DNA of 64,000 bases from Protonemura montana (Eukaryota > Arthropoda > Insecta > Plecoptera > Nemouridae), in the NCBI GenBank assembly GCA_947568835.1, contig OX387604.1:13049076-13113075 (forward strand). Reading direction: 5' to 3'. Positions 1-36,229 of this stretch are shown in pieces. The position numbers and the translations under genes are program-made. The notes under the pieces are model-generated. The model was not told where the DNA came from, made no database searches, and was given only the letters and a program-made list of their open reading frames with translations. Positions within the stretch are counted from its first letter, which is position 1, and each line of letters begins with the position of its first letter.

Positions 1-3000
1 GAGCAGGGCGGTTCACGAACGGACGAGGTGTGTTTCCTTGCGACTCTTGATCAAAAGAAGTTGATATTGCTGGCTTTTCAAATGGAGGTGAAGGCCGTTT
101 AATATTGAGATGTGGCTTCTTCGGGGTCTCTTCGAAGTGAGGTCTGCCTGCTGGTGTAAAAGAAGGTACTCTATTGCCTTGAGATCCCTGATTCAGTACT
201 TCATGTCTTTCATCAAAGTTTGGAACGATTGGTTTTTCATCGAATGGCTTTTCGTCAAAAATCTGCGGCCGTCCAAAGTTCCCTTGAGGTTGTACTACAA
301 CATCAAAGGATGGAGCATTGTTTCCAGGTCTTGTTGGTCGCTTTTCAAACACTTGGTGTACATTTATGTTGGATATAGGAAGCTGTGGCGGTCTCATAAA
401 CACTTCGGGCATCTCTGTGACTACCGTGGGTTTTGAGATTGGCCTTCTAGTCGTTGAGTTTTGAGACCCTTGCCCAACTGTCAGTGGTCGTGAGTTCGAT
501 GCCTGCACCACTTCACCGCCATCTAATTCAAGCGAGTCATAATCACCTTCGTTGTCATCAGGGAAAGAATGGTCTTTGCTTGAGTCCGTGTTCTCTTGAG
601 ACAGGATTGCTTTAAGTGGAATGACATTAGGTGTGTTGGTGAATTGCTTTGGCGGCGCAGGTGGAGGAACCATAAACTCGGTTGGCGACTTTGGATAGTT
701 GTGGATGGTTTGTTCACCTGAACCTTGCTTGTTTCCATGTGGCCCATTATTTCCATGAGGTACTTGATGCCCACCATGGTTTTTATCTTGCAACAACTGA
801 TTATTATTTGTGGGGTGATGTTTATTGTTGGAGCCTGGCCGATAGTTAACTGGTGGGAAGCGAGGTCTTGATAGTCCGTTGGATGGCGATGGGCGCTGAG
901 GTCTTCTGGGTAAATCTTGAGGACTTTCTGGTCTCGAATTTGATGGTCCTGGCTTTCCAAAGGAGATTTCGTTCAACAAAGGCCTGTTATTCAAAGGCTC
1001 ATCCAAGACGATGCCACTCGGTGAGATGTGTTCATTACCGTGCACGTGTCCAGAGGCTGGGCCACCATGGCCATGGTTGGAGGAGACGTCAACGTTTATC
1101 CCCTGCCCGGGGCTGATGTCTACGTTGATTCCAAGCGGACTGATCTCTATGTTTCCTGGCTGGTGTTCGTGTCCTGAGACAGCCAAATCAGCAGCAGGTG
1201 GGTCCATACGAGTTTGATGTACGGACCCGACTGGTACAACATAGTGGTGCTGGTTGTTGCTATCGATGATATCATCACTTCCGAAGTTTGGTCTGTTTTG
1301 CAATCCATGTGATGGGGCGTGGTTGATGTATTCTTCATTCTCACCAAATGGATTGGCCGATGAGCTTCCATCCTTGATAATAACATTGGCAACTTGAGAA
1401 GGTTGAATATCCACCAATAATGGTTGGCCTGCTGATGAGTCTAGAACATGGGATCCCGTTGGAATTTTCCCGAGAATTATGTCGTTTGGCTGAGGTTGGC
1501 CACCGTACACGGCTTGCACGCCTGAGGATACAGGGAATTGGCCAAACTCTTGCGATAGTGGATTGTTTGTAATAATGTAATGGTTCTCGTTTAGAATCGG
1601 TGGATGAACAATGATATCTGCTCCAATTGCTGGAGTATACAGAGGAATATCCTGTTCTGTGTGGAATGATGCAAGGTTGTTGGGAATTGGAGGAGGGTTT
1701 AGATCAGACTCGATGTTAGGATTATTGCGTGATGGAGCATAGCTAGAGAACTGATTTCTGACAGGAGATTGGTTTTGCTGATGATCTCTATTTGGAGGCC
1801 CACCATTGTAGTTTCTTATAGGTTGTTCTCGAATCGGTTGGTGGCCAGAAGATCCCCCGACGTGATTTCTGGTTGGACCGTGGCTCGGAACATGCTCCCT
1901 CTTGGGCGGGGGCGGCGGACTTCCGGAGTGGGAATTCACTGATTGATGACCCACTTGGTCTAGAGCTGGAGGCGGTCCAAAGTACTGATCGTTCGCTGGG
2001 CGTTTTGGCCGCGGAGGGGGTGGGGGTCTCATGCCAGCAGGGATTTCTTTCTCTGAATGAATTTTAGGTGGCCTCGGTCCCAACAAGCCTGGCTTGCCAA
2101 CAATCACGTCGCTGTTAGCTGTTATCACTTGCCCAGGACTGATCGCAATGCCATCGGAGAGAAGAGGACTCTCGTGAGTTGGCCGTCCCAAGGCGACAGA
2201 ATTCTCGACAGAAGGATGTCTGCCGTGTGCGTCACTCCACGACTCCTGGTTCACGCTCTCGGCTGTGTCGGCATCTTCTGCAAGACCACCTACAGGAATG
2301 TAAATCGGGGACCTAGGCGTCGTTCGATCTCCATGCGCAGTAAAAACTGGTCTCGGATTTCCATTTCCATCGAGGTATGAAAGCCCAGGCTTAGCACTGG
2401 TTGCTGTGTCATTTCTTCTGTTGTTATCGTGAAGGTTACTTTGAATCAATCCAGCCATGGCATTAATTACAGGACCTAGAGCATTTAGTCCATTGATTCC
2501 TAACGATCCCAAGCTCAACAAATCACTGACTTGGATTTCGTTACCTCCTGGACCAAACGTTCCTCCGTTTGGTTTTTTATTCGTCGGATCAGAGACAGGA
2601 ATCATCGAGATGTTGCCATTCGCTTGAGTCAGCATGATAACTTCATCCCCAGGAAGAAGAGTATTGCCGGATGATGTGATGGTCGACGCTGCAAGAATCG
2701 ACGTTTCGAATGCGTTAACACCCTGTGGTCTCGGAACATCTTGTTGGATACTCTGGCTGGTCAAAGCTTGTGGACTGACAGCTCCCTGGCTCTCACTGAG
2801 CTGTCCATTTAGAATGGTAGTCTGTGGCGAGTTGATGGCAGATTCCAAGGCAGGTGTTGCTGACTGCGGTGACTGGCTGTCAATTTGGTCGTGCTCATCG
2901 AAGAAAACAATTGTCGAGCCAGTGACAATGCTGTTGGTGTTAGAGTTTTCACTGTCATCTTCCATCGAAGAAGCAAGTCCTAGAGTGGAAGTCATTTCTT

Positions 3001-3868
3001 CACCCTGCATTACTGTCTTGGTGGGTGATAAGTTTTCAACTGATGTGATTTTCATGTTCTCTTCTTGTTCTTGACTTCCAAAAATATCCTGAGATAAAGT
3101 TTCGGTCACAATATTCTGTACGACGCTGGTGTGAGAACTGACTAGCGTTGAAGTTTTCTGATCAGCACCTTCTTGCAAAAGTGTCGTAAAGTATGTAAAA
3201 GTTGTGAGGTATGTTTTAGTTGCAAACAATTTTACAGGTGTTGTTTGTTTCTCAGCATCAGCGACACTTTTAGACGGAACGCTGGTACGTTTTGGATTTA
3301 AATAAAACTTCTCGGTCACGATATCTGTTGAAATCGAAACATCTGAACTGACAACTGTGCTTCCATCTTCTAGATAAGTGTTCAAATAAGTGTAAGTCAC
3401 AAAATAAGTTTTTACTACATCCGTTGTTGAGCCTGTCGGTGGCAGAGCAGTCACAGTTTGTGACTCAATATTCGTTACAACTTTCTGTGTCAAAACATTG
3501 CTGGTACTCAAGACTTGCAGCTTGCCACCTTCAGTGACTGTTTTACTGAATTCCATTGGGTTCAAATAAGTGTTGGTTTCTTTGAGCTCTGTTTGAGTGA
3601 GCTGGTCGATTGATGCAGTGACAGTATTATCAATAAGCTCCGTTGATGAAACTACGAGCGGGACGTCTTCGTCTACCAGGGTGTTGTAGTAGGTGTAAGC
3701 TGTGTGGAATACTCCCGTTGCCAACACCGGACTTGTTGTCAGCGAAATCACTTTGGTCAAATCGGTTGATGCTGGTGCCCTCTCCTCGGTCACGGTGTTC
3801 GACACTACGAGCTCCTCAGAATTGTAGGCATACGTCGTCAAGTAAGTATTCGTGACAAACTCATTGCT
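1..3868 (-). CDS. Exon 4 of giant protein, runs off the left edge
   Basis: An acceptor (taatttcag) precedes AGC AAT GAG at 3868; the frame reads SNEFVTNTYLTTYAYN and carries several more TYTY-TT-like modules down to about 3.1 kb. Below about 2.6 kb the composition changes to a long Pro/Asn/His/Gly/Gln-rich region (for example RPPPPPRPKRP and repeated QPIREQPIRN-type units). I translated it by eye from 3868 to 1 and met no stop. The gene must continue to the left, because neither a stop codon nor a poly(A) signal was reached. The open frames called in other phases over this interval are shadows. Confidence 0.85.
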
Positions 3869-6800
3869 CTGAAATTAAAATAGACACACATGTAAGAAAA
3901 ATGCCAGTAGTTAGTAATAAAAATGTATTAAATTATCTCTTTCAATTGTTTGAATTTTTTTTTTAATGGAATATTTTATCATTAAAAAGCTTTCAAGGAA
4001 ACTGTGCTGGCCAAAAATGGTTGAAGTCTGTAATTATTGTGGAAAGTAAATTATATGACAAGCGTTCAATAACCACTTAATGTGATAACTGTAATGAATG
4101 TATTGCAAATTGCTTTGGAAGTTCAAATTCTAGAAATCACCCATAGCTGTCAATATTGCCATTTGAGCTTCTGAAAATCTCATATCAAGAAAAGTTACTG
4201 ACTAGCCCTCTAGATCCAATTAGCTGAATTAAAACATTAAATTAATAGACAAGTCAAATAGGCAAGTCGAATTTTCCATAATTTGTTCTAGTAACTTTAA
4301 CTTATTCAGCAACAGTAGCAACTATATTTGTTAGCTTCTTGACAACAAGATAGAACTACTAACTATATACTACTATATATATATTTTTTTTTTCGCAGTG
4401 CTTAAGTCAGTACGAAATGGACATGAGTCTGAGCTTAGAGAAAATAATACCCGTATTATTTTCTCTAAGGTCTGAGGAATTTAAGTATGGTGATATTGTT
4501 CTGTATTTGTGCTAAGTTCACCTCGGACGGTTTCTGTGGCAAGAACATCATCATGTGGTCGGTGAGCGTGCTTGCTGGTAGCGTTGTTGGTCTGGTCTGC
4601 GAAGACGTGAGGACGCGGAGGATTTCCGGGTCTCCGGGCAACGTACTCCGATCGCCAGCCACGATCACCTCGACTCCATTGGACATCACCTTCGTTGCCA
4701 AGTTGTACCGGGCCTCAGCCATGTTCAGCACACGATCATCCCTCGCTTTAGAAAAAATAAAACCTTGATATTCCGGTAACAGCATGAAAAAAAATTTGAG
4801 ACTTAAATGAAGGCTTACAAATCTTTTAGGGAATTGTGATCTGATGAAATAATTTTAACCCAGGTAACAATTATTTCAAGGTATACCTTTTTCCTCAAAT
4901 TGTCTCATACATAAGTTGTTTTTATCATTTTTAAAACATATTTTAAACAATCTTTATTAAAATAAAAAAAATTTTTAAATTAACAGTGCCAAACTTTTAA
5001 GATATGTCTACCACACACTGATAGAACAAAATAGTGACAGAATCTGAAGAAATGTTAGAACATCATGAGAACGTTAAAAATAATGGTGTGTTAAAAATGA
5101 GAGAGATAGAGAAGATGTGAAGACAATAAATTAATTCTTACCTGTTAGGTCTTGTACACCATGATCATGAACGACTTGCGTCAATGTTGCTGTAATGACG
5201 TGGGGTTTGACCTCGGTGCTGGATGTAACAACTTCTTCGGTTCCAGATACTCGTGTTACGATGTAAGTGTAAGTCCTTAGTCTTGTGCGTGTTACAAGTC
5301 GGGTCAAATACGATTGTGGTTCCGACTGGTCAGTAGGGATAGTTGGTGTGATGGGCTCATCTATGTTTAGTTTTTGGTCGGCTAAGTGAGCATCAGTGCT
5401 AAAAGTACCCTCCACATTTTTGTCTTCTGTTTTTATCATTTCTGGCTCTACAGAGATTGCAGAAGAATGATGGGGTTTTCCGTAAGTTTTACTCTTACTT
5501 GGTCGGAATGATTTACTAGATTGTTTAAAATTATTTAATGACAGAGACGGCGTTGGGTTCACTTCAGGGAGGCGTGTGGACAGTCGGTTGGGATTGTATT
5601 TATGCGAAGTTGAGCGGTAACTATTTCGTGTTGTACTTGTAGTTTCGCTGGGTGTTACTGATGTCGTAGCATGATGTTCGCTAGTTTTACGTCGTCCCCC
5701 AGGAAATGATGCTTTAGCCCGGCTTGGCTTTCTGGTAATGGAAAATCGGGTTGGTCGAATGAACCGTGGCCCATCAAATGTACTTTCTTCATTCGATGAA
5801 CTGTCTGTCACTGCAGAAACGTCATCCTTTAGGTTAATGTCTTTTTCAGTGACATTAGTAGCTTGATGTTCTTCTTTCTCTATCTCATGCGAAACACTTG
5901 CAATTAAATTTCCATTAGTACTTGAAACAAAACCATCTCCCTCCAACATCTGGGTCATCTCGACAGGGTTTGAGTTTATGGTTTCAGAATCACTAAATGA
6001 AGTCTCAATAGATTGAGACGGCTCAATTTGAGAAATTATTTCAGGTGTTGTTATTTCCTCGGTCTCAGTTGTGACCTCCACCGACTCTTCGATCATCGAG
6101 GAGTTGTCATTTTTTTCTAACTGATTTTCTTCGGGGATGTTTCCTATCATGAAGACCTGAGACACTTTGACCATATTATGTGGTTCATCTTGATCGGTTT
6201 CATCCATTACAGAGTACATGTATGAGTACAAAGTTTTCATTGAATGAGTGGGAGCTATTTCTTCCCGTGCACTCACGAGTCTCTTTTTTGTGACAATCAG
6301 ACGACGTTTATGAGTAGTTGAGGGTGCAACAGAGGACGTTGCCAAAATTGGCCTCTTTTTGGTAATAGTAATCTGCCTCCTATGCGAGGGCATTATTGAC
6401 TGAGAACTGGTGTGGTATGCCAATTCGTGCTCCAATGTGACTGGTAACTTTTGCGGTTCCAAGTGCTGTTCGTGATCACTTGATAACTTTCTGTCCTCTA
6501 ATAAATTATCCACTGGCTTTCGCCTGCGAATTATAATTCTCTTCCTGTGGTGATCTTTGTCATCATCATTATGATGCTCTTTATTTCCTGTCCTTATGAC
6601 TTTAACATTTCGAACTCCAAACTCCTGTTCACCTATCCGCAGATCTTTCGCAATAGCAAGTTCGTCAGGACGCAATTCTTCCGAAATCGGCTGGTCTTTA
6701 TAGTTTCTGTTATCAGAAACACGCCGCGCAATCGGTACGCGAACCCGCACCCTCCGACGCCCAGATACTTGTCGGCTCAAGGCCTGGTCCTCGTCGCTTA

Positions 6801-9800
6801 CCTCCCTTTTAACTCGAAGTGGATACGAATAGTCATTCGGAGATGTCAACGCACGATAATTTTTGTATTCGTAATACGATTTTTCTTGGCCCCTATTTGA
6901 TTCATTTACGACCTTCCGCTTGAGTGGGGCTAACTCAGCGGGGCCTTTGGATAAAAAATGACCGGTAGCTTTATCACTGGTCGTCACAGACTTCTCAACC
7001 ACATCGATTTCGGTAGAAGGCTTGCTGTTTATGGTAGGCGAAAATCGGTCAGCAACGTTGTATTTGCTAACATCACCCACGATGCTCTCAAGACTTTGAG
7101 TCTCTGTCCTACTGCTCTCGATGGCGATATCATTTGATGAAAACAAAAGGGTGTCTTCCAGATCGTTGGCGAAATATCTTTCTAGGTCGGGTGACTTGGA
7201 AGAGTCGACAATGAAAAGGTCAGGGGCCGCAAATTCAGCCTCCCTCTTCTTAATCGTAGCTGAGTTATAGTCGTCGACTACCACTGTGGAGAGGACAGTG
7301 CTGAACTCTCCTGGTCGTCGGCCAGAAACGTAGAGCGTGATCACCGAAGTCGAGGGTGGATTTGGTGGATCTGGAGGTTTCTTATCAGCTATTTGCATCC
7401 TTGAAGGCTTCTTTCGTGACGACTTAAATCTCGGAACAACTGGTTCTACTTCCACGATTTCCAAATCATCGTCATCGTACTCTTTTTCTGAGTCTCGTAC
7501 CTGTCTGTCAGGATCCTCTTGTTTCCGGCGTTTCTGTGATCCCCTACCAATCGACTCTATGTCCAGAACTTCTTCTGCTCTAGCATCTTGGAGCTGCTGT
7601 ATGTTTATTAACGGGCTTTGCGACGCTTGCTGGTTTTGACTTTGCAGCAACTGCGCCTGAAGTAGTGCGGGTAGGAGCAATGAGTTCAATTGCTGTTGAT
7701 TTGGAGGGGAGGCTGCCGTGGGCGTCGTCACGATGGTGTTAGTGATAAACTCGGTTGCAGTTATCGTCTCCAGTGTTGTATCCACGATTGTCGTCAGAAT
7801 TTCTTTCCCTCGGAACGTAAGGGGTAGGATAGTACTAGACCCTTTCGTCACAGTCGTAACATACGTCGTCGCGTGAGTTTTGAATTCAGTCACGGGTGTG
7901 GCTGGAGTCGTCGCGGAATTCAGTCCGAGCAAAGGATTGATATTTGGTTGCGCAAGATTTAGATTTCCTAGGAGTAACTGCGAGAGGAGTATGTTAGCTA
8001 GGGGTGCATTGGGAGAGAGATGGGGCTGAATAGTGCTGACGAGCCGCTCAACATCATACACGGTGCTCGGTACCACATGAGAGAACGAAGTTTTACGCCC
8101 ACGAATTACAGTGGGAGTAAAAGTGATACTCGTCGTTGGTGTCTCGTGCAGAATGTATTGAGTGACTTCGGTGACTCCCCCTGCTAAAGTTCCAGTCACT
8201 TCCGATGTTAAAAGCAATACAGTATTGCCATCCTTGCCGGATGTCGTCGTGTATTGGTGTGGTCCCAGGATTTCTGTGCTAGGACTGGCAGTTATAACAT
8301 TGCGGTATTCGGTTACTTTCCCATTGACGATTGGAATCGTAACTTCTGTCGGGACACGATGGGTGACCGTGATCGTGCCGTCAAAACTCGCCTGCGAGTA
8401 CGTATAGCTGTCTGCCATGTCTCCTCGAGTTCGCGACCGGCTCTGGGGACGGCGTGAGTTAGTATTGGAGCTCGAGTAGCCCCTGCGTCCACTCAGCCGC
8501 GAGTACTGCGAAGAGTCCGTCTGCGAGTTAGACTGAGGGCGTAACCGAGGGGAGCTTGGCGTCTGTCGAGCGGGAGACTCTTTCGTAGTAGGAGGACGTC
8601 GTCTTGGGGCCGGCGTAGGTCTACGAAAATTTGTCCTTGGCGTGGTGTCTTTTTCCCTTAGTGTGAACTGAGAGCGGCCAGCGTTCGAGGACGCCGTCGT
8701 CGATCTGATTTTCTGCTGACTGGGTTGAGATGGCCTGGACCGTGGGGTAAATCTGCTCGTGGTTTTTGCTCGCGGTGCTTCGGTTGAGGGCTCCTCGTCG
8801 ACATAGTCGTTTCTTTCTTGAACTTGCGCTTGCGTTCTAGTGGTAACTGGGCGGCGAAATCGTTGGTTGTAGTTCGATGTTCTAGCGGTTTCACGTCTTG
8901 CTCCGTATTCAGATGTTTGCCTCTTAGAGCGCCGCCGCTGGAAGCCTACAAACGGACGGATTTGAGGACTAAGTGCTTTGCTCTTCCGAAGCGATGCCTC
9001 AGTTTTTGGCTCCTCAACCTCCGCAACCTCTGACCCTTCATAATCGTTGTCAGCAATTTCCTCGTCGACTTCGTCCTTCGAAAGTTCATCCTCTACTTTT
9101 TCAACTTCCTTTCGCACTTCTTTAACTTCTTCCTCTGGTTTTTTCAAAAGTCCTCTCCTTGGAAATAAGCTGTTTGAAGGTCGAGGACGATTGTTGCTTA
9201 AGTTCTTGAACCGACTATTGAAAGAAGGCACCGGTTTTGCAGTTGTCGTCGTCGTTGTAGTGGTCAAACGGTTGTTGTTGTTGTTGTTGTTGGCATCTGA
9301 AGTGCGGCGAAGAGGACTCTTCCTCGGAGCCGGAGTGGTGGATGGTCTCGGTGACGTGGACTGGGTGCGGATCGGAGGTCGGCGGAATCTCAGTAGGGGG
9401 TTAGAACGCCGCGAGGACTCGGTAGTGGTGGAGATAGGTTGAGTCGGCGATTCCTGTTCTTCCTCTGTTTCGTTCGGAGTCTCCTCGGTCACGAAAGTGG
9501 TAACTACGTTGTCTTCTGGGTTGGATGGCTCAGCGGTGCTCGGCGTTGTGTACACCGAGCTGGCTCCTCTTCCAAATCCAGATGACGTTGGTCTGAGTCT
9601 CAGATTCAATCTTGAGCTGCTCGCGCCGCCGCTCGTAGACTTGAGTGGGAAATCAGATGCGCCACTTCTAGTCGACGAGCTCCTGAAGAATCCTGCACGT
9701 CGCGAAGATCCAGGCGCACTCGCTGTCGCTGTAGGGAAAACTCTGGTCGTTGACCGTCCTCGTCCGACTGTAGGTGACAAAGTGCTAGCTACCCCGAGCG

Positions 9801-12800
9801 CCGGAGTCGACCCACGCACTCTGGAGAACCTCCTAGAGCTTGACGATGATGGTCGAACACCTATTTCATTTAATGAGGAGCTCTGACGCCGGTTGCTTGC
9901 AAACCTACCCCTTCCTTCTGTGGTCTTGGCGGCAGGAGTCGCGGTGATCGTCGGCGTCAACGTGGTGCGAGTGATCGTAGTTGCACTGCTCGCGTTGGCT
10001 GTCTTCCTGCGAGGGTTGAACGTAGGTCGGTTCCGAGATGCGAATGGACGGATTACCGGCGTAAATGTTCGTTTTCGTGTCGAGAAAGTCAATCGAGACT
10101 TCTTCGATTTCTTTGCGCCATCGCCATCATCGTCGTCGTCGTCGTCGTCATCTTCGTCATCCTCGTCATCGTCGCCATCTTCATCATTTTCACCATCCTC
10201 ACCTCCAGCATCTCCCAAGGAACTTTCGAGAACACTGGAACTGGGAGACGTCCCATGAGAACTGGTCCCTGTTATGGCTTGATCTAATGTAATAGCTGAT
10301 GTAGGCACTATTACGCCTTCGGGTAGTTTAGTTTTCATGCCAATCTTAAAGCTCGAAGTGCTCTCAATGATCTGAGCATATCGTCCGTCGATAACAGTTC
10401 CAACCACCTTTGATTCGTAGAAAGTAGTAGTGTCATCCTTCACTATCGTTCCTTCAATAAGTCGCACTAATCCAGTTTTTAATTGCTTGTCTTCGTCGAG
10501 CTCGGATGTCAACTGGGTCTTCTTTTCTTCATCCACTTTGACCGAGGAGGTGCTTTCGAGCACTTCGGCGTAAAGCTGTTCAATATATGTCCCAATCGCT
10601 TTGGTTGTAAAGTATGTGGTGCTAATTCCATTCGCATCGACGATGCTTCCTTCATTAAGAGACACAACACCCGTGGGTTTCACCTGAACAGCGTCCGACG
10701 GCAAAATTCCGTCCGTTACTATTTGGGTGGAGCTCTCCAAGATCTTGGCATAGAGTCCATCGATGTAGGTGCCATACACATCAGTGGAAAATAATGTGGT
10801 AGTTCCATCCTCGACTTGGCTGGTTGCTATTGTGGAAAGGAGGCCAGTGGGCAGGGTGGCTGGTTCAGTTTTGGTGATTTGGTCTACGATGAGCTGGTCA
10901 GGAGCCGAGGTACCGATTGCCCGGCCAGTCTGGTCATCAGTCTCGTTCACGATGTTAGTGATGGTTTCTAGTCGGCTGTTCAGCACCGTGTTATTACCGA
11001 TATACGAGGTAGTGAAATACGTATAGGTAGTGTAGTACGTGGTTGGCTCCGTTTTAGTAGGCTCAATCTCTGCAGTTGAAGTCTCGAGACCTGGGGTCGC
11101 CGTTATCAAAACAGGGGGGAGAGTCACCGTTGGTGTAATGATGTTTGACACGGTTTCTTCCCTGCTTGTCACGACAGTGTTACCGTCTCGATAAAGGGTT
11201 GTCCAATACGTGAAAGTAGTAAAATATGTAATCGGGAGTGTTGAGTCTTCTTCAATTACAGCCGAGCTAGTGGGAGACAGGGTCTCAGTAACTACATTAG
11301 TAACAGTTTCAAGTCTACTGATCACTTCAGAAGAAGTGCTACCCTTATACACGGTTGTGAAATATGTGAATGTTGTGAAAGAGGTTTGGAGAAGAAGGAT
11401 AGGAGACGGCTCTATTTCTTCAGTATTGCTTTCGGAACTGATTTGATCGTCAAGAATTTCATTACCCCCAGAACTGCTGCTGGTTATGTCGGTGACCATC
11501 GCCATTGTCTTGACGATCATTGGTTCATTCGTAACGGGCGAGGCATCGATATCTTCACCAGGAGCAAATGTGTCAAGACGCACTTGAATTTGAGGGCTAC
11601 CATTGTCTGCCACGGTTGGAAGTGTTACAGATGATGCGGAAGAATCCTGATCAAATGATCCACGCACATCGATACCGTCTTTTCCAGTTGTTTGTTCTTG
11701 CGTCACTGAGGTTGCCGAGTCCTCGTTTTCCTCTTCGTCGTTCGAAGAAACTGGAGATTTCCTAGTCGTGCCTTCAAATGCAGCTGCAGACACTGCATCG
11801 TTTTGAGGTCTTGAAATAGTTGCATATCTATCGTCGAATTTTGGCGTTGACTTGACTGTAATATCGTTAACGTTAGGGGAACTTCTTACTCCTGATGACA
11901 ACCGATTTCTTGAAATAGTGCTGCTGTAGGCATAATGGGGCGTTGATTTTAATACAGGTGTACGTACGTGAGAGGATTGGATAAATTCCAAGTTATCTGA
12001 TCCGTCAATATCATCTAGGGACGACTCTTCATCATTCGCGTATCCCGCAGCAGCTGTGGGAGTTACTTGGATGTCATCAGTCGCTGTTGTTGCAACGATG
12101 CTTGGAGTCACTACATTGGTGTACACTTCTGTTCTGCTTGAAATAGTTGTCTCTCCATCGACAAATATTGTTGTAAAGTAAGTGTAAGTAGTGAAAAACG
12201 TTTTGGTCGCACCTTCAGTCTCTGAAGAAGGCTGCAAATCCGGAGACTCTACTCCCGATTGTTGATTAGATGCCTCTTCGCCATACGAGTCGCCGATTGC
12301 ATCGATACTGGGGAAATACTGGGTAGTTGGCCGCCCTACTCCCACACTGGTTGGCATCACTTCTGTGCTCAGCAGACTTTCACTTCTTTCAAACAACCCT
12401 GCAACTGGGGATGACTGCAAGAACAGTTTGGTGTCAAGCGTGGACGTAACAATATTTGTAACTACTACTTCACGGCTGGACACGCTGGTTGTCGATTCTT
12501 GGAAGAATGTTGTCAGATATGTGTAAGTGGTAAAAAGAGTTTTGAAAATCAAATCGATTTCTTCTTCGTCATCTTCACTTGATGGCGTAGTTGGAGTCGG
12601 TGTGGTGATGGTGATTTCTTCAGATTCAGTCGTAACGACTTGTTCAGACTGAACTATTCCAGCTTCAGTTGTAACATCTGTTTGCTGTTCTACACCTTCA
12701 GTTGTCGTTTCCATAGGTTCTGAGACGAAATCTGTGCTCTTTTCTTTCTCTGTTGGGAGTTCGGTAGTTGATTTTGTTTCTTCGGTGGTTGCCTCCTTTT

Positions 12801-15800
12801 CCGTGGTCGATAGTTGGTCGCTCTCCTCAGTTGTGATCGGTGTTGAAGTCGTCAGTTTTTCAGGCAGATAGCTTGCAGCAGTGGTTGTCAATTTTGATGG
12901 CTCGACAACATTAGCATTGATCACTTTGGTGACTAAACTTACTTCAGAACTTGTTACTTCTCTCGATCGCACTGACGTGGTAGTTTTATCCCCATCGGGA
13001 ATGAAGAAAGTCGTAAGATATGTAAAGGTCTTATAGGCAGTTGTCGGAACTATCCTGGTCAGATAGTTATCTGTGGAAGAAGTCTTCGCTTTAATTTCAC
13101 TCGGCGATAGTTCCTTCTGCTTGTCACTACTGGAGTTATCGTTGTTGTACGCAATTATCTGATCAACTGGCCGTGTTTTTATTTTCCTGCCAGTCTTCAC
13201 CTGGTCATCCGATGAGTCCTCTGATGAGAGAGTTGTTGATTCGTTAGGAGTAGTGCTGACTGTATCGTCCCCAGTTGTAGTGGTTCCTTCTGTGGTTCCC
13301 TCCGTAGTAGAACTAGGCTGCTCTGCTACGGCTGTCGTTGGAGCTAAATAAAAGGTCGACGACGTTGAATGAATTACTTGTGTGTATGTTCCATCAACTA
13401 TCGTTCCATAAAAGAGTGACGTAAACAGAGTGGTGGTAGCGTTGTATGCACGCGTTCCTCCTAGGACTTTGACGAGTCCAAGGGGCTGTTTCTGGTCGGC
13501 TGCTGCCAAAATCTGCGTTCTAGTGGTAGCAAATGTAGCCAGTGGCTCGGTCGCTGTAGGAAGGAATGACGTGGTAGAACCGATTACCACCGGTGAGTCT
13601 GTAACGACATCTTCAACTGATGGTTCGATCAGAGATGGCTCTATCGCAACGATGGACGGCTTGATTTCAACGTCAGGTGGCGAAATCGAAGAGGCTGAGT
13701 GCAGATCAGCAGTGACCACGTGAACAGGGCCAGCTGGGGGAAATGCCTTCATATGTCGAGTTCCACTTTCCGGGAGTATGAGATGAGTTGGTAAACTCGT
13801 CTGCATACTGAGACTGTGCCCGCTTACTGTTTTCGTCTGCATTCCGGGCGTAACGGAATAGAACGTCTTCATCTTTGTCACGATCTTGTTTGGTTCTTCC
13901 GTCGATGGAACCTGTACAGGAGACGAAGTTGGCTTACTTGCTTCCATTGGCGCAGTATTCGGCATGAAAATTATTACTGTATCACCAACTGTAGTCGTGA
14001 AATCTGCAAAGCCTTTGTAGGTAACCGTATCCAATTTTCGAGAATCAGTTTTCACTCCATTTCGATATAACGCTTTTCCTCCCCTCAAGCTGAGAAGATC
14101 TTTGATTTTCTTTCCCTCTGTAGTTTCTTCTTCCTCAATATCTGCAGAAAACCCACTTGGTGCAAAATCGTGCTTGATCGTGAACGTTGGAAGGCCAAAT
14201 GTAGGTCTAACAACCTGCGCCGGATTAACTTGTGGAGAGTTTTCAGCTGCGTCCACGTTCCTCTTCTTAAACGGATCTGTATTCGGTGACACCAGGAAAT
14301 TGTCTTGCTCGTCGGCGTATTTGTGTTTCCGTTCCACGTGCTTACTGGACGACGACTGGCTGGAGAATCTGACCACTCCATCATTTGCCTCGTCTCCCCC
14401 AGCTTGTTGATGATGTTTTGCCAAAGGGACGAGATCAGGGATGGTTTTTAAAGGTTTGTTGAACAAGGAATCGCCTTTGACTGCCGTCTGATAAACCAAC
14501 CCCGAGCTACTACCGTGGGGTACTCGAGTGTCCTTAGCAGGATAAACTAAATGAGCAGTCGGCTTAATTGTTGACCGCGGATTAGTAGGCAAGATCTGAT
14601 TGTCAATGCTGAGTCGCGGTAGGTGTGTGTCATAATAAACACGGGAACTGGTCCCGACTACCGACGCGTATAGTTTCCCCTTGTCGAGCCTAGTCCCTAT
14701 GACATGTGTAGCGTACTCGGTGGTGGTTCCTTCTTGCACGAACGTCCGAGCAGTGGAGGTGACCACCGGCACGGCGGTAGCCAAATAGCGCCCATTACGC
14801 CCAGAGTTATCCAGGAGCAACACAGTGTTGGCATCTGGTGGAAGTTGATAGAGAGGTCAAGAAAAGAGATACAAAACGATAAGTCAACAAATCGATCTAC
14901 AGATCGATAGATTGAAATAATGAACGTATAGGGAAGACAATAAGAACAATATACCATGTTTGATAGGTTGGCATGTACTCAATATGTATGGGTTCTTGAC
15001 AGAATGCAGAAGAATTGTTTGTTGTTGTGTTGGAAATGATGTTTTTGTTTTTGTCATGGTGATTTACAAGATGAAGACATGTCGTGTATTATCCACATCA
15101 TAGGCATGTATCGTCAGTGACGATTTCAATAATATTGTTTTCACAGCTTTAGGCAATGGCCGGGTATGTGATGAGAAAGTTCTCATCGCTATAGTTGGCG
15201 CTGTGGCTTTTAGTTTCAGACCATAAGTTTCACTATGAATTGCAATAATTAAATACAGAATTGCATTACAGCTTGATCTTGTAACCGAGACCAAATGTTA
15301 TAAGTTTTTCCAGTAATAGATTTCACACAAAGTATTTTTTTTTTTACATCTCCTGGCGATGGGTATTTTCAAATTAGTACACATTAGACCATAACAAGGT
15401 AAAAAGGAAATGACTCGTTTACACTTTAAGTGTTAGCAATTAAAGCAGTGCCACAAAAAGAAAAACAAGAGTAAGTAATACGATGTGTACATTGTGCAAA
15501 TCCTAATTAATTGTTATGTGAGCGTGTAGACACATGTAAGTTTAACAGAAAATCAGGGATCATCAAAGAATGCAACTGCCTCTTCCCTGAGAGAATTCGC
15601 TACTTTCTAAAACTATTGCTGTTAGTGAGCCATAATAATTATAATGATACAATGCCTAAGAATCATAAATCACAAAAAACAAGTGAATTCACCAGGAGTT
15701 CAATTCCTATCATCAATTTAAAATACCTCATAATTGTAGGTGCGCCGATATTGAGTGATAGTGATTGAGTGATAGATTTCTGAGGAATTCGTGGGAGCCT

Positions 15801-18800
15801 GCCAGGGGTGAGGACCCAAGGGCCGGACCGAGACCATGCACAGTACTGGCATAGGCGCCAGCCGTGCCAGGTGATTTGGACCCGCCAAGCCCATCATGAT
15901 AGGTAGGTACTAGGTCAGGGGGGCAAGACAACGATCAAGATGCTTGTCTTGGCATTCGTGATTTCGTTTCATTCGGCTTGGTTAATGAGGGAAACTAACT
16001 TAGTTGACTTACCATTTTCATCTCGTCCCACCCTCTCTGCTCTCACCCTTCCACTGCCAATTCCATCGCTTCCTGAAATTACAAGGAAAATGTTTGTGTC
16101 ACAAAGTGTTCGATTTCGTTTACGAATGAAAAAACAAAATTGAGCTGCAATAAGTTTGCAATCAATTGAGAAAAGACCATTTGTGCCAATTCTGTTCAGC
16201 TTTGCTACCAAAACAGATATTTGCCCGCTGGCTACAAAAAAGTAACCGTTTCCCAATGCGTATTTTTACAGAATATTATAAATTTAACGAACCTGATATC
16301 AGATTTCTTTTTTTTATAAAAAAATCGTAATTCGAAAGAGACTTAAACAAAAAGATGTTCGTACATTTTTGATAATATGTTTTAGATAATATCTGTTGGG
16401 CTAGCTAGGTAGAAAATGGAAACTCTTTCAGTGAAAGTTTTCCTAAAATAACTTTTTGAATATAAAATATTTCCGTGTGAAAATTCTGACGATTGACAAA
16501 CTAAATCATTGAAAAAGTACGCCAATGTGAATCGCATATTCTTTTTTGGTGCGTCTTGTATCGTTCTATCTACAGTCGTAATCGCTTGCGCCAAAGATGC
16601 GTACTGTTTTGTCCATTGGTGTCTTCTATGGTTAGTACGAGAAAATGCGCACCTTTAGCCTGAATACCGACGAGAGGTGAAAGAGCCAAGCAGACAGGTG
16701 TCCGTATTCGGCTGAGTGCAGACTGCCTATCGCTCCTCACTGTCGATTGACCCACATATCTTCATCTCACCATCTAAGAAACCCACCTCCTCAGCCAGCA
16801 TACAACCTACACTGATCCACTAGCTAGCCAAAACTAACACTGATTGAAATTTCAAACATCAATGAAACCCATCTGACATCGGATTATTTTTTTAAAATAA
16901 CTCGCACAGTTTATGCTGTACCACTATATCCCTTATTTCTTTGTGTATGATGTGAATTCGATTTTAGTCTATTTTCACAGGCGCATTTATTTTGTTGTCA
17001 CGAATATTTGTTATCATTATTATTATTGCCTGAAATCTCACGACTTCCTTTGCAAATTAGCCCATTAGAAGATCTTATTTCTAGTCCATTCAAGACGTCT
17101 CAAACTCAATCTGAGATTTCACAATTATCACGGGTTTGTAACGAAAGGTTAAAAGTGAGCGAGTGTGGTAGGTATACGGTATGCGAAAAAATTAGTTACT
17201 TTTTATATAAGAATGTTTGGGCATGTGGGCGTTAAGACATTTGATCATCTCACGAAATAGAATTGCACTATCATTGCAATTGAGTGATGATTGAGTTCTG
17301 ATCTCATGGGTTCGCAGCTAAATCCTACCAAAAAATAATCGCTAAACATTTTTTGAAACTGTTATTAAAATTACCGTGTACCTAGAGCTTTTTAACCAAA
17401 TATTACATACAATGCCGTGTAAATTCGAAGTTAAACGAGTTCAGATAATCTTAGTGTATCAATGCATCCACACATATGCTCCATACTAGCATCATATCAA
17501 CCTGCACTCAAGCGTGGAGAAAGTAACGCGCATTATCTCAATTCTTAATACGTTATTTACTAAAGCAAGCTGAGAAAAAGAAAGTTATATCTGGCAAGTT
17601 TTTCTAAACGGTGAATCGGTAACGTAATGATCACTTCCTGAACGAAGTAGTAGGCATAATTTGAGCGTGGGAGGCTGGCAAGGTGCTAGTCTTTCAACCC
17701 CAGTGGACCATTCAGAATCATGATTGCATTTCAGTCGATGAACACAATTAAGAATCTGCATGATTCAGCTAAAGCAATAATGCGGTAATACCAATTGCAT
17801 TTAGTTTATTGTGTACAGTAAATTCGTTGCAGACTTTACATACAAATTGGTTCTGATCAATTTCGTTATTGGGAGCTTACAACTGAAATGTGGTTGAACC
17901 AAATTTGGTTCATTAAATAATTTTTTAATGAGATACTTTCCTAAGATTTTACTTTGGACAACAATTTCTTGTGATGGTCTACTAGCATGTTCTAAGGTCA
18001 TCATTATCTGTTATGATCAAATTTGAACTTTACAATAGCTTCATCTTCCACGACGGTCACTTGAACAAGTGTGAGCGAGTTTTTTCAGGATGAGCTAAAT
18101 TATTCATGAGGGCAGTCTATGGAGCGGTATCATCAGTGGGTATCACTGCCCACCACCCAGCTACAATTTACACGAGCAAGAGACAACAATAGTCAAGGAA
18201 GTTCTAAACCACACTCGTGTATAAAATAATTAGATCCATTATATGGTAATACAAATTTGTGTGTAACAATTGCGAGCGAATAGTAATCGTCAACGCTAAT
18301 GATGCAGTTGAATACTAGCTTGAAGAAGTGCAGAACTTCAGGCAAAGTTAACAAACTGAAAGAATGAAAATCAACTTGTATAATAATCTCATTGTTCATC
18401 CATCTCTTCACTTGCATGACCTGTAGAACATATGAAATGCGACGGCAGAATGCTATTTTTACATAAAATAAAATAAAATTCAAATTTTTTATCCAATTGA
18501 CGTAAATAACAATGAAATTTTACACCAACTACCATTTGTAGTATACTAATAGTAATATGCAGGTAAATCTGGGAAAGGATAGGCAACGGTATTTCTATAA
18601 AAGCTAAGTCCCTAGTAAGGTTACGATTAATATCAAACAATTCCGCCTCGTCTTGTCTCATTGCTGAAACGGACTCGCAAGACTTTCAAGCAAGCAAGAA
18701 CAATTGTTGTGAATGATCTCCCTTTTTGACATGGAAGATCACCGTAAAGTACAGCCAACAGAGCATTAGCAAGACTTGGAGAGTGCATATCTTATGACTT

Positions 18801-27800: not shown

Positions 27801-30800
27801 ATTAAAATGTTTTAATCTTCTACTGACCGCCGAATATTATTAATATTCAACCCGGCAACTTCATAAAGGAAAAGTGTGGCTTTCTTTCTTCGTCGGAAGA
27901 CCCCAAGTGACCTGCAGTCCGAGCGGCCGTTGTTTTAGAAGTGCGGAGTTCGTGACTCTCAATTTGTAAACTATTGCGCGAAATCTCTTATGTCCAAAGA
28001 CAGCTATTTGAGTGAACAGTGCAGCTAAAATCATTGACAATATATCAGCGATTTGTGAATACATTGGCCAAAGAACTGTGCCTCGCACAGAAGAACGAGA
28101 AGCTGCGACCAGTGTGGACGAATGGACATCTTTGAACAAAAGAAAGCGATCCGCCTTTTTTTGTTCCTCCATCGCAGATTGATTCGCTTCTATATAGACG
28201 GTCATTAACATTGAAAATACATCAACCGTTTCTATTGACTTATAAATCTTAGAGCGTAACCTCAACTTGCATTGACTTAATGAGTGAAAATGAGATTGAT
28301 AAAACCACCATTAAACGCATCTAGATATAAAAAGTGAATATACCCTTGATCGAATAGTAAAAGACAGCCCGAGCTGAGACAAATTCTCTGCATCGGCAAT
28401 TCGCCTTGAAAGAGGAACAAAGTACAGACGGGCAAAGCATTAAATGCTATTTTCCCGACTTTGGGTTCTATTGAACCTTTCAGGTTGCATTTTGAACTTA
28501 AAACGCTGATCTCCTTCAGTTCCTCCAGCGCCTTTGTAAGTTAGAGAATATGACATTATTTTCGGATGGCATTAGGAACCGATGAAAGCTGGTCATGAGC
28601 TTTAAACAAAACCTCTCCGAAGTGTTGGACCAATTACTGCTGTTTGTCTGTTTTTGTACTCAAAATAAATCTAGAAAAAAGTACAAAATCCTCAACACAG
28701 GGAAAATTAGCTTAAATCCGAAACAAGCATCCTTACTGACTTCAGTCCTTGGACCAAAGACCTTTTTTCCTTTCCCCGAGTCATCAAATGATTCCAAAAT
28801 AATGCAACTATAAATTTTACCTTGGAATGTCGCTATTTCTGTCAGATCCATCCGAGTAAAGAAACAAGCATTCATTTATATCGTGTTAAACTGTAATTAC
28901 TGCAGCATGCGAGTGTTTAAATGGTAGGTGCTTTCTTGGCACTCGATTTTACATTTTGTTCCGGTAAAGTGGTGGGGTCCAACGTTCCAAATGATGATGT
29001 CGAAAGGGCCAGTGTGGGGCTAGGGAGCAGCCTCTCCGCTTACCAACAGTTTCATTATTAAAATTAGCAGCCATAGCCTCAGTGATAAAGAAAGCGATAG
29101 TTTTTGATATTTGTGATTAAAACCACTTCTCAGTCGTATTACTGCCCATTTGGACACGCATCGTACGTGCCTTTAACTCGATCACATAATTGTATGCTAT
29201 GCAGGTAAACATACATAATTTGCATCTCGCAAGAGCAAGCTGAAAATTTCTGTATTCCTGGTTTTGACTTCTTTATACTGACATAAAGCTCTGAAGGGAA
29301 TGGGTTTTAATTTATTGAAAAATGTAATAAAAATAAATTACCTAAAATAAAACACACGTGATCGAGTGTATAAAAAGTTGTTTACCAAACGGTTTGGCGT
29401 GTTGGAAACACCGGTTCTCGTGAGATCACAGAAGTTAAGCAACTCTGCGCTGAGTCAGGTATTGGATGGGTGACCATCATGCACATAACCAGTTCTGTTC
29501 GGGAGAGAGGTTGGAGGGATAAAAGTTAGTACAGCAACTATATTCGCCTTGCTTATCAGCCTCTCGACAGGATGGATTTGTGGTGGAATCCTGATGTTCG
29601 CGTTGTACCGTCCTTCGGAAGGGACGTTAAGCCGGTGGTCCCCTTGGTGCTATTTGACAGGAGTAGGATACGTCCTGGCATCGGGTTTTCCCTCCTCCCT
29701 TCTAGACTAGGTTAGGTTCATCATCATCCTCATAATCATCCGCTCATTCACCGACGCCATTAGACCAGTGCCGCAGGGCCAGTTGTCAAAACAGTGCGTC
29801 GTTAAACCATTTAACAAAATAAATAAATGTTGTTTGACCCAAAAGACACCCGAAGCTTGGTGCTGAAATTATAAAGAGAACACGTTATACCTTTAGGTAG
29901 CTATCTTCTGTTTTGGATAGGTGGTCTACGCTAAATGGTATGGAAAGGTTGTTGTCTTAAATTTAGCGAAGACTCTTATCTTAGTTCGAGTGCTTGAATA
30001 AGGGAGCCAAGGCCGGTTTATATTGACACGCTGGATGGATCCATGCTGCTAAACATACCACAATATCTCGGCAAAACTTTCATCCATTTCATAAAAACAT
30101 TCTCACATAGCATGCGAGTTTCAGGATATGCATCCGGGCCATTAGCCGTCTTTGATTCCCCAATGATTATCGTTTATTGTTGATGGTCAGGTCAGTTGCA
30201 GGATATTAGCAATACCCGCAAATCGTAATATTTCATTGCATCAGTACCTTCGTCCCATCCGCACATCAATCAGATTTTGTATTTTATTTGACCTACGCAC
30301 TATGTACTTTCACCCCCCCCCCTCCCCCTCCTCTGCCTAAAATTATTTTGTATTATCTCCAATTAACATAGCCGCTAGCCGAGCAAACATTATAAACCTG
30401 ATTTAAATGTTGGGTATTTAATATAAACTCTTGGAGAATATCGCACGCTCGTCCCACGATACCTTAAATATCAAAATATTTCATACTGCGTAAACGAAAT
30501 TCAAAACATTCCTAAACAGGGGGTTATCCAAAGGACGTCTACTTTTAAAGCAAATTGCTTGAAATTTCAAAGAGACGCACAGCTTTACTGGCTTTCTCTC
30601 AGCAAGCAAAGTTCACAGATCTAGGAAACGTAGGGCTACCTGCCCGAAGGCAGGAAAGCTGTTCAAATATCTTAACTTGCAATTGCCACACCCTCAACAC
30701 TGGTGTGTTGACTATTTGAAAAATGAAGTCTTTCAATGATACATTTTTGTATGTTTCCGGTAAATGCTAATTTGGTTTGGCACCAGCGACAGCATTCCAT

Positions 30801-31793
30801 TGCAAAAAGTTAAATATTCATGATCGAAATCTAGACGCAATTTAAGGGGAAGGGAAGTGATCGTGGCCTAGTTAGAGCCATACCATTGACCATCGGGCAA
30901 AGCGTATGGTTCAACAGAATCCCGCACGAAATGAATCCAAAACGGTTCACTCAGTCATTCTTTGCTGCATTCCAGCAGTGTTTTTTATATTTTACTTTTT
31001 TACGTTGATTTAATCAAGAATGATGTTGGTATTGGTATCTTTCGGTAGCGAGTTGTGACTGGTGCCATTTCAACCCCCATAAGACCCTAGTTTACGTCCC
31101 TAAATACTTCGCCGAGCTAGTCCATCGTTGTCGTAATATAGACTGAGATAATAAAATCGCTTCTAAATGCACCTTATTACTTTTCACAAGCCCAGTCAGT
31201 TATTTTTTGCAAAAAGTAAAAAATGCATACGACCGGGGCCTTGTTTACGACCTGCCTTGGAATGGACCTCAGATCCTCACGTATGCCTGTACTGCCAGTC
31301 GGCCCCTTCACCTACTGCCTTAATTTCTTGGAACGTAGGTAACTGACGTATCTTGTTTGTAAATAATCGTGCTTAAACCATTGACATTCCACCGCAATCG
31401 CACCTAAGGTTTGAAAATTAACATGACTTTAACTAACGGGTAGTTATATGTCAATTAACTGAAACCAACGATTTCTTTGCGTCTCATTAGCCAATTTCAA
31501 ATGGTAAAGGTGTGCGTCAATAGCGTTAAATTCCCACTCGTAGCCATGATGGCAGGTGATGTATTGACTTGCCGTAAACCACTTCCTGATCGTTGGTATA
31601 CCGTATAGTAATATTGACACTTATATATATGGAGACCTAAACGCAATACGTTTTGCTACTTTGTAAAGAATATTATGATTAGTAAAATTGTTTTTGTTTA
31701 CTTACCTATATCACATGCTACGTGGTGCAAAAAGAATCCGGCAAGTAACAGCCAAGTGAGCTCCCTTATCTTTTTTCTCCTAGGCTGTAACAT
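1..31793 (-). CDS. Giant secreted Ser/Thr-rich modular repeat protein (DUF4758-like), 3' partial
   Basis: Seen: four phase-compatible coding exons, complement of 31706-31793, 5142-14834, 4522-4745 and 1-3868, give at least 4,624 residues; the frame is still open at the left edge. The order is a signal peptide, then repeats of a module around T[FY]TY[LFW]TT[FVLYS] followed by SRxExVTNxVT, interspersed with a second module around TTxxxGTxxDGxYAxxxxSTSS, long Ser/Thr, Arg-rich and acidic linkers, dibasic proprotein-convertase-like sites, and a Pro/Asn/His/Gly-rich C-terminal half. Known: insects have very large mucin-like proteins of this texture, often called mucin-like or DUF4758 proteins, mostly without assigned function; I recall the DUF4758 link from memory. 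Inferred: an extracellular, probably glycosylated matrix or cuticle-surface protein. Whether it ends in a membrane anchor cannot be seen. The gene model is strong; the family name is tentative. Confidence 0.85.
4427..4476. repeat. Perfect 17-bp palindrome flanked by 7-bp direct repeats
   Basis: Arms 4434-4450 and 4453-4469 are exact reverse complements (CTTAGAGAAAATAATAC and its complement) around a CC loop. They are bordered precisely by GTCTGAG at 4427-4433 and again at 4470-4476. It sits in the intron between exons 3 and 4 of the giant gene, about 50 nt downstream of the exon 3 donor on the minus strand. The exact direct repeats look like a target-site duplication around a minimal foldback insertion. 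Confidence 0.85.
4522..4745 (-). CDS. Exon 3 of giant protein
   Basis: The acceptor (tttctaaag) precedes 4745 and the phase is completed by the G from exon 2 (GCG, Ala). It encodes about 75 residues with the clear sequence MAEARYNLATKVMSNGVEVI, then GDRSTLPGDPEILRVLTSS and a Met-rich stretch DHMMMFLPQKPSE. The donor is GAG|gtgaac at 4521-4520, phase 0, weaker than the gene's other donors. Reading through it would add 18 residues and stop at a TAG (4467-4465) inside the palindrome annotated next door, so a truncated intron-retention isoform is possible. Confidence 0.78.
5142..14834 (-). CDS. Exon 2 of giant protein: 9,693-nt repeat exon
   Basis: An uninterrupted frame of about 3,230 codons lies between an acceptor (ccaccag) before 14834 and the donor G|gtaagaat at 5141-5140. 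It enters with two bases and leaves with one (phase 1). It contains at least six copies of the TYTY-TT module, mostly clustered at about 13.0-10.9 kb, at least five copies of the GTxxDGxYA module (about 14.7, 13.4 and 10.8-10.3 kb), an acidic run near 10.1-10.2 kb, a poly-Asn and poly-Thr patch near 9.24-9.29 kb, an Arg/Ser-rich segment near 9.0-8.4 kb and convertase-like sites RRRSKR (about 8.93 kb) and RVKR (about 6.81 kb). Antisense open frames over this exon are low-complexity shadows. Confidence 0.9.
21318..21336 (+). repeat. Poly(C) run
   Basis: Nineteen consecutive C residues in the first intron of the giant gene. It is likely to be length-variable and error-prone in assembly. Confidence 0.95.
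21975..22020 (+). repeat. Imperfect (AGT/GTA)n microsatellite
   Basis: Trinucleotide repeat with two interruptions in the first intron of the giant gene. The minus-strand frame across it reads as poly-Leu and is spurious. Confidence 0.9.
22411..22445 (+). repeat. GCCAGTCA/GCCA simple repeat
   Basis: Mixed tetramer and octamer repeat of GCCA and GTCA units. Intronic, with no coding signal. Confidence 0.8.
24434..24502 (+). repeat. Alternating 9-mer (18-bp) minisatellite
   Basis: Units AGGTACAGT and AAGTACAGT alternate strictly, giving an 18-bp higher-order period repeated about 3.7 times. The strict alternation implies that the dimer, not the 9-mer, was the unit last amplified. It lies in the first intron of the giant gene. 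Confidence 0.9.
26179..26216 (+). repeat. (CTATACG)n heptamer tandem repeat
   Basis: About five perfect copies of a 7-bp unit in the first intron of the giant gene. Confidence 0.9.
29384..29828 (+). mobile_element. 5S-rRNA-derived SINE (SINE3 type), apparently full length
   Basis: The head matches animal 5S rRNA, including CGGTTCTCG, GATCAC, a box A-like GAAGTTAAGC (29431-29440) and a box C-like GGATGGGTGACC (29464-29475); the spacing from the 5' end to CGGTTCTCG equals that of 5S rRNA (37 nt). The body contains the imperfect palindrome GGGACGTTAAGCCGGTGGTCCC-like core near 29620-29642, and the tail ends in an AAAT-type repeat. GTTGTTT at 29377-29383 and 29829-29835 forms a candidate 7-bp target-site duplication. 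The element is in the first intron of the giant gene, on the opposite strand. Transcription would use the internal Pol III promoter if the boxes are intact. Confidence 0.85.
31706..31793 (-). CDS. Exon 1 of giant protein: start codon and signal peptide
   Basis: ATG at 31793-31791 opens 29 codons plus one base before a donor G|gtaagta at 31705-31704. The peptide is a basic N-region (QPRRKKIRE) followed by the hydrophobic stretch LTWLLLAGFFLHHVA and Cys-Asp, a textbook secretory signal. The exon ends in phase 1 and the next exon begins with the two bases AT, which restores GAT (Asp) and leads into ANTVLLLDNSGRNGRYLAT. The exact phase match across 16.9 kb is the reason for choosing this exon; it is too short to stand out as an open frame on its own. 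Confidence 0.82.
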
Positions 31794-35442: not shown

Positions 35443-36229
35443 ACAAGTAGTTTAAAGGTTTTCTCGATCTAGAGCAACACCAGGTAAAGTTAAGAAGTCA
35501 ACACACAAAGATTGCAATAAACAGACGAAAAATGAAGGGCCACTATATACTAAACTACACTACTCAGTGTTTTTTATGGGAGTATCCTCCAGCCAAGACT
35601 TTGCAGTTGAAAATGTGACACTTACGTTCGAGGTACACCTTTCTCCAGAAGTCACAGCAATGTGAGTCAGTGTTAAAGATACTTTAAATGTATCATCTAC
35701 TCAAGCAATTATATAAACATTAATACCACATTTGTGAGCTATTTTGCACAAATCGCTTGAGAACATAACCTCTCGGCGAACCACTTGCATGGTGCACAGC
35801 GGCAGCACACATTTGGGGTGAAGTTCGATCAGAGATTCGATGTTGCCAACTTACGATCTCGACCTACCTTGTTCAAAATGTTGCCGCCAAACAACAGCCC
35901 GGAAACTTGGTGAGATTATTCACCGTATAAGTGAAGCGATCTACTTAAATTTCCTAGTTTAAGAACAACACTCAAGAAAGATGCATATGCTGTGTTGTAA
36001 GAAACAACCCGAAATGTTCAACAAATTGAAAAAATATATACTCCGAAACCGAGCGAACGCGCACCGAGTGCTTGACCGAGTGATCGCAGGCTGAACTATT
36101 TTTGACGTGATTGCTTGCTTTTGACATATGTGCGGAGATGTCATGTGAGCTCATGGGCAAAATGAGCATTTCCACCGGGGTTATAAGCATTACATTTAGA
36201 AGAGTTGCAATTTGCTAAAGCGCTTATTA
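35443..36229. promoter_or_regulatory. Shared divergent promoter region, FASTK-family gene / GUF1
   Basis: The start codons of two divergent genes for mitochondrial gene expression are 787 bp apart. I see no third gene. Short frames at 35959-36190 (minus) are unsupported. No TATA box was obvious on either side. Co-regulation is inferred from the arrangement only. Confidence 0.5.

Follow-up and report, generated by a model that had tools for sequence, protein, structure and literature searches.

The window analysed here, a 64,000-nucleotide stretch (C16:13049076-13113075) of a 258-Mb genome comprising 34 contigs, contains two very long minus-strand open frames: one at positions 5131-14856 (3,241 codons) and one at positions 2-3874 (1,291 codons, open at the left edge). 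The longest frame across 30 dinucleotide Markov windows of equal size reaches only 196 codons, and we therefore consider both frames to be coding. With 10 kb to the left of the window added to the analysis, they become parts of a single gene model, C16:13042866-13080868 on the minus strand, in which 14 predicted coding exons are joined in frame through 13 GT-AG introns, giving 17,016 nt (including one terminal stop) and a giant product of 5,671 residues. Splice sites were picked by eye from GT-AG dinucleotides and frame. Past exon 10 the grounds are weaker, and confidence is lower for the last three exons, an alternative being that exon 10 is read through to a stop. The exons are as follows, in window positions unless marked otherwise:

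31706-31793, minus strand: exon 1, start codon and signal-peptide-like sequence, 29 codons plus 1 nt, donor GTAAGT
5142-14834, minus strand: exon 2, 9,693 nt, with DUF4758 modules, an acidic run, an Arg-rich stretch, candidate furin-type sites and no cysteine
4522-4745, minus strand: exon 2b, 224 nt, needed for frame between exons 2 and 3
1-3868, minus strand: in-window part of exon 3, where four of the five A modules in the second block precede a Pro-rich stretch
C16:13042866-13047671, minus strand, outside the window: ten predicted exons encoding an EGF-like domain, a SEA domain, two EGF-like domains, a transmembrane segment and a tail

Several elements of the original prediction for this locus are borne out by this model. 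The 9,693-nt exon it described (14834-5142) lies inside the 3,241-codon frame, and its signal peptide corresponds to a signal-peptide-like exon (31793-31706) with a hydropathy (KD) peak of 1.26 at residues 11-29. Its figure of 4,624 in-window residues is exact once exon 2b is counted, the coding sum being 88 + 9,693 + 224 + 3,868 nt = 13,873 nt, or 4,624 whole codons; a direct join of exon 2 to exon 3 breaks the frame, and the 224-nt exon restores it. The 3.9-kb terminal exon of that prediction, in contrast, is really an internal exon of 5,011 nt cut by the window edge. It ends at C16:13047933, 1,143 nt outside the left border of the window, at the donor GAGAAAG/GTACTT, and is followed, after an intron of 261 nt with matching phases, by the ten further predicted exons, all in phase and bounded by GT-AG. 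Within the 17-kb first intron, 60 nt at window positions 16013-16072 (minus strand) lie between TTTCAG and GTAAGT in a phase that fits exons 1 and 2, and could represent a cassette exon.

Pfam matches identify further genes in the window:

33677-34135, minus strand: FAST-kinase-like
36781-37777, plus strand: elongation-factor GTPase, which we take to be GUF1; a second piece is below cut-off
40239-41108, minus strand: RmlD-type protein, by our assumption probably MAT2B
42972-43586, minus strand: MOSC_N protein; a second piece is below cut-off
44524-45295, plus strand: Longin protein
53662-54919, plus strand: otopetrin

Two minus-strand frames, 34433-34789 and 34849-35451, have no Pfam match.

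The giant is an additional member of DUF4758 (PF15950), a known family of unknown function that Pfam describes as 'Putative sperm flagellar membrane protein'. Its 3,241-codon frame matches the family profile in nine stretches (E=7.8e-83, 275.8 bits against a cut-off of 27), in keeping with the earlier description of a giant modular extracellular protein of this texture, for which 'DUF4758 or no hit' had been expected; the in-window part of exon 3 alone scores 22.7 bits, below the same cut-off. A profile search of the genome gave nine scored places, eight of them above cut-off in exon 2 of the giant and one at C4:1840425-1840562. The term DUF4758 was not found in any of the 5.39 million papers searched. 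Self-trained profiles detect two kinds of module, set in S/T-rich linkers, in the extracellular region. There are 11 copies of the A type, each about 37 residues long with the core T-Y-T-Y-x-T-T, and 5 copies of the B type, each about 47 residues long, given here in window positions:

14581-14733, minus strand: B module 1, residues 64-114
13309-13443, minus strand: B module 2, residues 494-538
12928-13047, minus strand: A module 1, residues 626-665
12436-12546, minus strand: A module 2, residues 793-829
12097-12207, minus strand: A module 3, residues 906-942
11278-11391, minus strand: A module 4, residues 1178-1215
11125-11235, minus strand: A module 5, residues 1230-1266, predicted beta-hairpin, mean pLDDT 91.7
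10936-11046, minus strand: A module 6, residues 1293-1329
10669-10809, minus strand: B module 3, residues 1372-1418
10501-10629, minus strand: B module 4, residues 1432-1474
10297-10437, minus strand: B module 5, residues 1496-1542
5182-5292, minus strand: A module 7, residues 3211-3247
3782-3868, minus strand: A module 8, partial, residues 3336-3364
3608-3718, minus strand: A module 9, residues 3386-3422
3305-3415, minus strand: A module 10, residues 3487-3523
3095-3220, minus strand: A module 11, residues 3552-3593

Two module types had been predicted, and two are found; that they are interleaved is true only of blocks, which alternate in the order BB-AAAAAA-BBB-(long gap)-AAAAA. Fifty shuffles of the first 5,100 residues yielded no B hits and five weak A hits, the best at 5.7 bits against 22.4-55.9 for the real copies; the profiles were trained on this same protein, and the control speaks against composition as the cause of the hits and does not show outside homology. 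When the 11 copies are supplied as an alignment, structure prediction gives the A module as a two-strand hairpin with a mean pLDDT of 91.7, and a 365-residue A/B stretch predicted without relatives was discarded at a mean pLDDT of 30.8. A Foldseek search with the hairpin returned 374 matches at E<=10, and among the matches listed (the best 50 of 374) none reaches E<=0.001, the best being 0.62. Profile comparisons with solved structures produced one weak row each for the A module (a DUF4183 protein, E 0.0096) and the B module (Cj0977, E 0.72), neither of which we retain; the 3,241-codon frame gave nothing at E 0.1 or better. At residues 1591-1599 (window 10126-10152, minus strand) a run of nine aspartates sits in an acidic stretch that is followed by an Arg/Ser-rich one, and the two might pair by charge within the ectodomain.

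Cysteine is absent from residue 28 to residue 5102 (5,075 cysteine-free residues), the 18 later extracellular cysteines falling into three groups of six. Four of the ten Pfam rows obtained for the C-terminal 681 residues exceed their curated cut-offs: EGF_CA (E=2.3e-9, 37.8 bits against 27), SEA (E=7.8e-7, 29.6 bits against 26.4, near the predicted membrane helix), the EGF-type model Plasmod_Pvs28 (2.1e-6) and EGF (1.4e-4); EGF_3, TNFR_nem, cEGF, CD34_antigen, Cadherin_C_2 and hEGF are below cut-off. The above-cut-off EGF matches all correspond to the middle cysteine group; for the first (5103-5139) and third (5312-5349) groups, the EGF-like label comes from the spacing of their cysteines and from weak matches. 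The SEA domain was recovered again by a whole-genome search at C16:13046463-13046651; a sequence search of it against solved structures gave one meaningless row (exportin-T, E=1.4). The sole strong hydrophobic segment of the protein, VLLIALVTIGALLLALLLVCAVL, scores KD 3.16 over 19 residues (5355-5373), with the next best at 1.37, and is followed by basic residues and then by a 294-residue tail. This combination of a lone strong hydrophobic segment, basic residues and tail leads us to predict a type I single-pass membrane protein of 5,671 residues, a prediction that is well supported at the level of sequence. The earlier view of the product as secreted is thus not supported for the full-length protein, as the hydrophobic segment is encoded to the left of the window: the gene seems secreted only when reading stops at the window edge. 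The predicted tail ends in FDSL (residues 5668-5671, near C16:13042866) if exon 13 is right, an ending that may be of PDZ type.

The chromosomal context suggests that this gene is distinct from the conserved insect member of the family. The single DUF4758 place found outside the giant lies on C4 among the following features:

C4:1773857-1775407: SIKE family match, the family to which we take FGFR1OP2 to belong
C4:1777484-1778358: SPCS3 (SPC22 family)
about C4:1838160-1845650: DUF4758 matches and frames
C4:1869665-1869865: tetraspanin exon, 29.6 bits and so below the cut-off of 32.1, one of 59 such rows in the genome

In Aedes, Monomorium and Blattella, the insect SFMP gene is reported in the linear order FGFR1OP2-SPCS3-SFMP-tetraspanin (PMC7544147), an order that fits the C4 locus and not the giant on C16. 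Neither SPCS3 nor FGFR1OP2 was found among the scanned neighbours of the giant, which include the FAST-kinase-like and elongation-factor GTPase genes, an A20 zinc finger gene and LRR genes. With the C4 locus in the published SFMP order, it is most likely that the conserved SFMP is the C4 gene and that the giant is a separate, second gene. What the giant shares with the insect SFMP/DUF4758 family is the DUF4758 profile, far above cut-off. Three of its B modules match the 20-kb C4 region at 45-50% identity (best E 9.2e-9), as do its residues 294-333 (42.5%, E 2.4e-4). Relaxing the threshold brings in the remaining two B modules at that C4 place as well (E 0.013 and 0.019). It also adds two collinear matches that are individually insignificant (giant 2356, E 0.50, and 2069, E 1.4) and four seemingly unrelated rows (giant 3975, which at E 0.031 is better than the collinear two, and 5027, 1565 and 4847). 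The reversed protein gave three rows against C4, at E 0.11-4.6, so that together with the loose-threshold rows we count only the B-module and N-terminal matches.

The two loci also differ: the giant carries 11 A modules and the EGF-like/SEA/transmembrane/tail end, whereas no A modules are found in the 20-kb C4 region, and the last large frame of the C4 gene, considered by itself, stops without a visible membrane segment. A genome search with the giant's EGF-SEA-transmembrane-tail portion returned seven rows. Six fall on the gene itself, with a best E of 1e-60, and the seventh is a weak match on C11 (E 1.4e-6), so this search found no comparable second copy. SEA domains occur in at least two places in the genome, in this gene and at C1:11898383, introns making the count a lower bound. 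A tetraspanin-like match also lies about 52 kb from the 5' end of the giant (C16:13133410-13134072, plus strand), so that each DUF4758 locus has a tetraspanin match no more than about 55 kb away; with 59 rows in the genome, this may be coincidence.

We propose that the gene encodes a huge DUF4758 cell-surface protein that tethers an epithelial surface to the apical matrix or cuticle in the manner of MUP-4 and MUA-3, a reading to which we give roughly an even chance. The architecture has good support in the sequence; splicing, tissue and function we infer. Among the three possibilities originally raised (a cuticle or apical matrix polymer, a tracheal or eggshell component, and a sperm surface protein), the first appears to fit this architecture best. 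The ectodomain would form an extended, partly O-glycosylated strand that starts at the apical membrane of an epithelium secreting cuticle or matrix and reaches into the matrix above it. Its hairpins could act as sticky units or stack with one another or with matrix polymers, while the EGF-SEA unit would keep the strand away from the membrane and the tail would connect it to the cytoskeleton. Furin-type cleavage at candidate RSKR or RVKR sites could free N-terminal parts into the matrix. With some 5,300 extracellular residues, such a protein could span a long distance, making it a candidate link between epithelium and cuticle. Two results weigh against this reading. Pfam scans of every exon piece from exon 2 onward reported no chitin-binding, VWA or ZP domain up to E=1. 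The motif ACHGTTAK, given for Shavenbaby in PMC4053989 and used here as an indicator of epidermal control, shows no enrichment in the window, with 7 occurrences against 13.1 expected. The name CG13188 has no occurrence in PMC4053989.

In C. elegans, MUP-4 and MUA-3 also carry EGF and SEA domains. They are large transmembrane proteins proposed to link the cuticle to the plasma membrane, and are related to matrilins, a group of proteins with VWA and EGF domains (PMC11304992). The giant has EGF domains and a membrane helix but, unlike these matrilin-like proteins, no VWA domain in scans from exon 2 onward, and its ectodomain consists mostly of DUF4758 and low-complexity sequence. By analogy, it may work like MUP-4 and MUA-3 without being a member of their family. 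IMPG2 (PMC9478142) offers a further precedent. We tentatively suggest, as a possible though rather less probable extension of the tether model, that arthropods have a giant transmembrane tether joining epithelium to cuticle, which arose when a DUF4758 head, similar to the one in SFMP (a separate gene with an apparently soluble product), gained a membrane-anchored EGF-SEA unit. It would be an independently built functional counterpart of nematode MUP-4 and MUA-3. The combination of DUF4758, EGF, SEA and anchor is expected to be present in sequence databases already. Discussion of how arthropod epithelia attach to their cuticle and apical matrix centres mostly on ZP-domain proteins, for example in PMC4883753, and in one analysis Drosophila appears to be without transmembrane mucins (PMC2515642), a statement that the tether reading, if true, would qualify. 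Drosophila Dsx-c73A (Dsc73), described as a secreted protein proposed to belong to the apical extracellular matrix of cuticle-forming cells, resembles the giant by description only, with no sequence link made between them.

The strongest competitor, which we regard as possible at perhaps half the weight given to the tether, is a secreted apical-matrix or cuticle polymer, released through a transcript ending after exon 3 or through furin-type cleavage, with the membrane stub serving as a delivery device. Candidate R-X-[KR]-R sites would permit the latter: residues 30-5100 hold five where shuffling predicts 1.33 (as many as five turn up in 5 of 500 shuffles), although the sites lie partly inside the Arg-rich stretch, for which whole-ectodomain shuffles do not control. 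Reading through the exon 3 donor adds about 29 codons before a stop (ORF L002:8769-9998, L002 being the added 10 kb to the left) and would give a soluble form, and the last large frame of the C4 paralogue likewise ends without a visible membrane segment. Against this, the exon 3 donor is in phase with exon 4, and by eye the intervening intron offers neither a start nor a signal peptide for a separate EGF-SEA-transmembrane part. The probabilities given to the preferred and rival readings overlap, as with two genes and a secreted product, and together exceed one.

Somewhat less probable is a barrier function in a lumen or glycocalyx, in which the protein would line gut or trachea as a mucin-like transmembrane layer and not serve as a mechanical tether. 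To our knowledge, IMPG2 and the transmembrane mucins lack DUF4758. The giant does share with IMPG2 and MUC1-type mucins an S/T-rich extracellular region, a SEA domain near the membrane and one membrane helix, and its SEA-EGF-transmembrane end resembles that of transmembrane mucins. IMPG2, an extracellular-matrix proteoglycan with a transmembrane segment, has two SEA domains where the giant has one (PMC9478142). Transmembrane mucins are marked by a PTS region with abundant Pro, Thr and Ser. Serine and threonine average 23.5% in 100-residue windows across residues 30-5100, with 27% of windows reaching 30% and none reaching 40%, a threshold of our own choosing; this speaks against the barrier reading, and on this basis we reject a classical mucin. 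The self-cleaving SEA motif is described as GSxxV, with x being V or I (PMC9478142), and the whole 5,671-residue protein has no match to GS[VIAL][VIAL]V, in further contrast to transmembrane mucins. By eye, the SEA strand at the corresponding position seems to read DGIQV, and from the missing motif SEA self-cleavage is unlikely.

We consider it improbable that the giant belongs to the sperm surface or flagellum, the role implied by the Pfam description and by some database names. In a damselfly, transcripts so named are male-biased (PMC5131402), which lends the idea weak support. The SEA domain is itself named after a sea-urchin sperm protein (PMC3886910), and best-hit naming through SEA or EGF domains could label genes of any tissue in this way; the Pfam description of DUF4758 may have arisen via SEA homology, and the family's 'sperm flagellar' name may thus derive from SEA naming and not from a tested function. 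Two further occurrences of the name point away from sperm and are not decisive: a protein so called falls after fungal treatment in whitefly (PMC9727895), and a 'putative sperm flagellar membrane protein' is among candidate genes for an ant cuticular hydrocarbon, at q 0.280 (PMC12723442). Least probable of all is a pair of neighbouring genes, one for a giant secreted DUF4758 protein and the other for a small EGF-SEA-transmembrane protein: the join of exons 3 and 4 is a prediction only, but the 261-nt intron has matching phases and, by eye, no second-gene start with a signal peptide.

Elsewhere on C4 lies a copy of the mitochondrial COI region (C4:5760925-5762262) that scores equally to the match on the mitochondrial contig C34; it could have entered the nuclear genome recently or reflect a join made during assembly. 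In keeping with an invertebrate, COI on C34 (15,885 bp) is stop-free under table 5.
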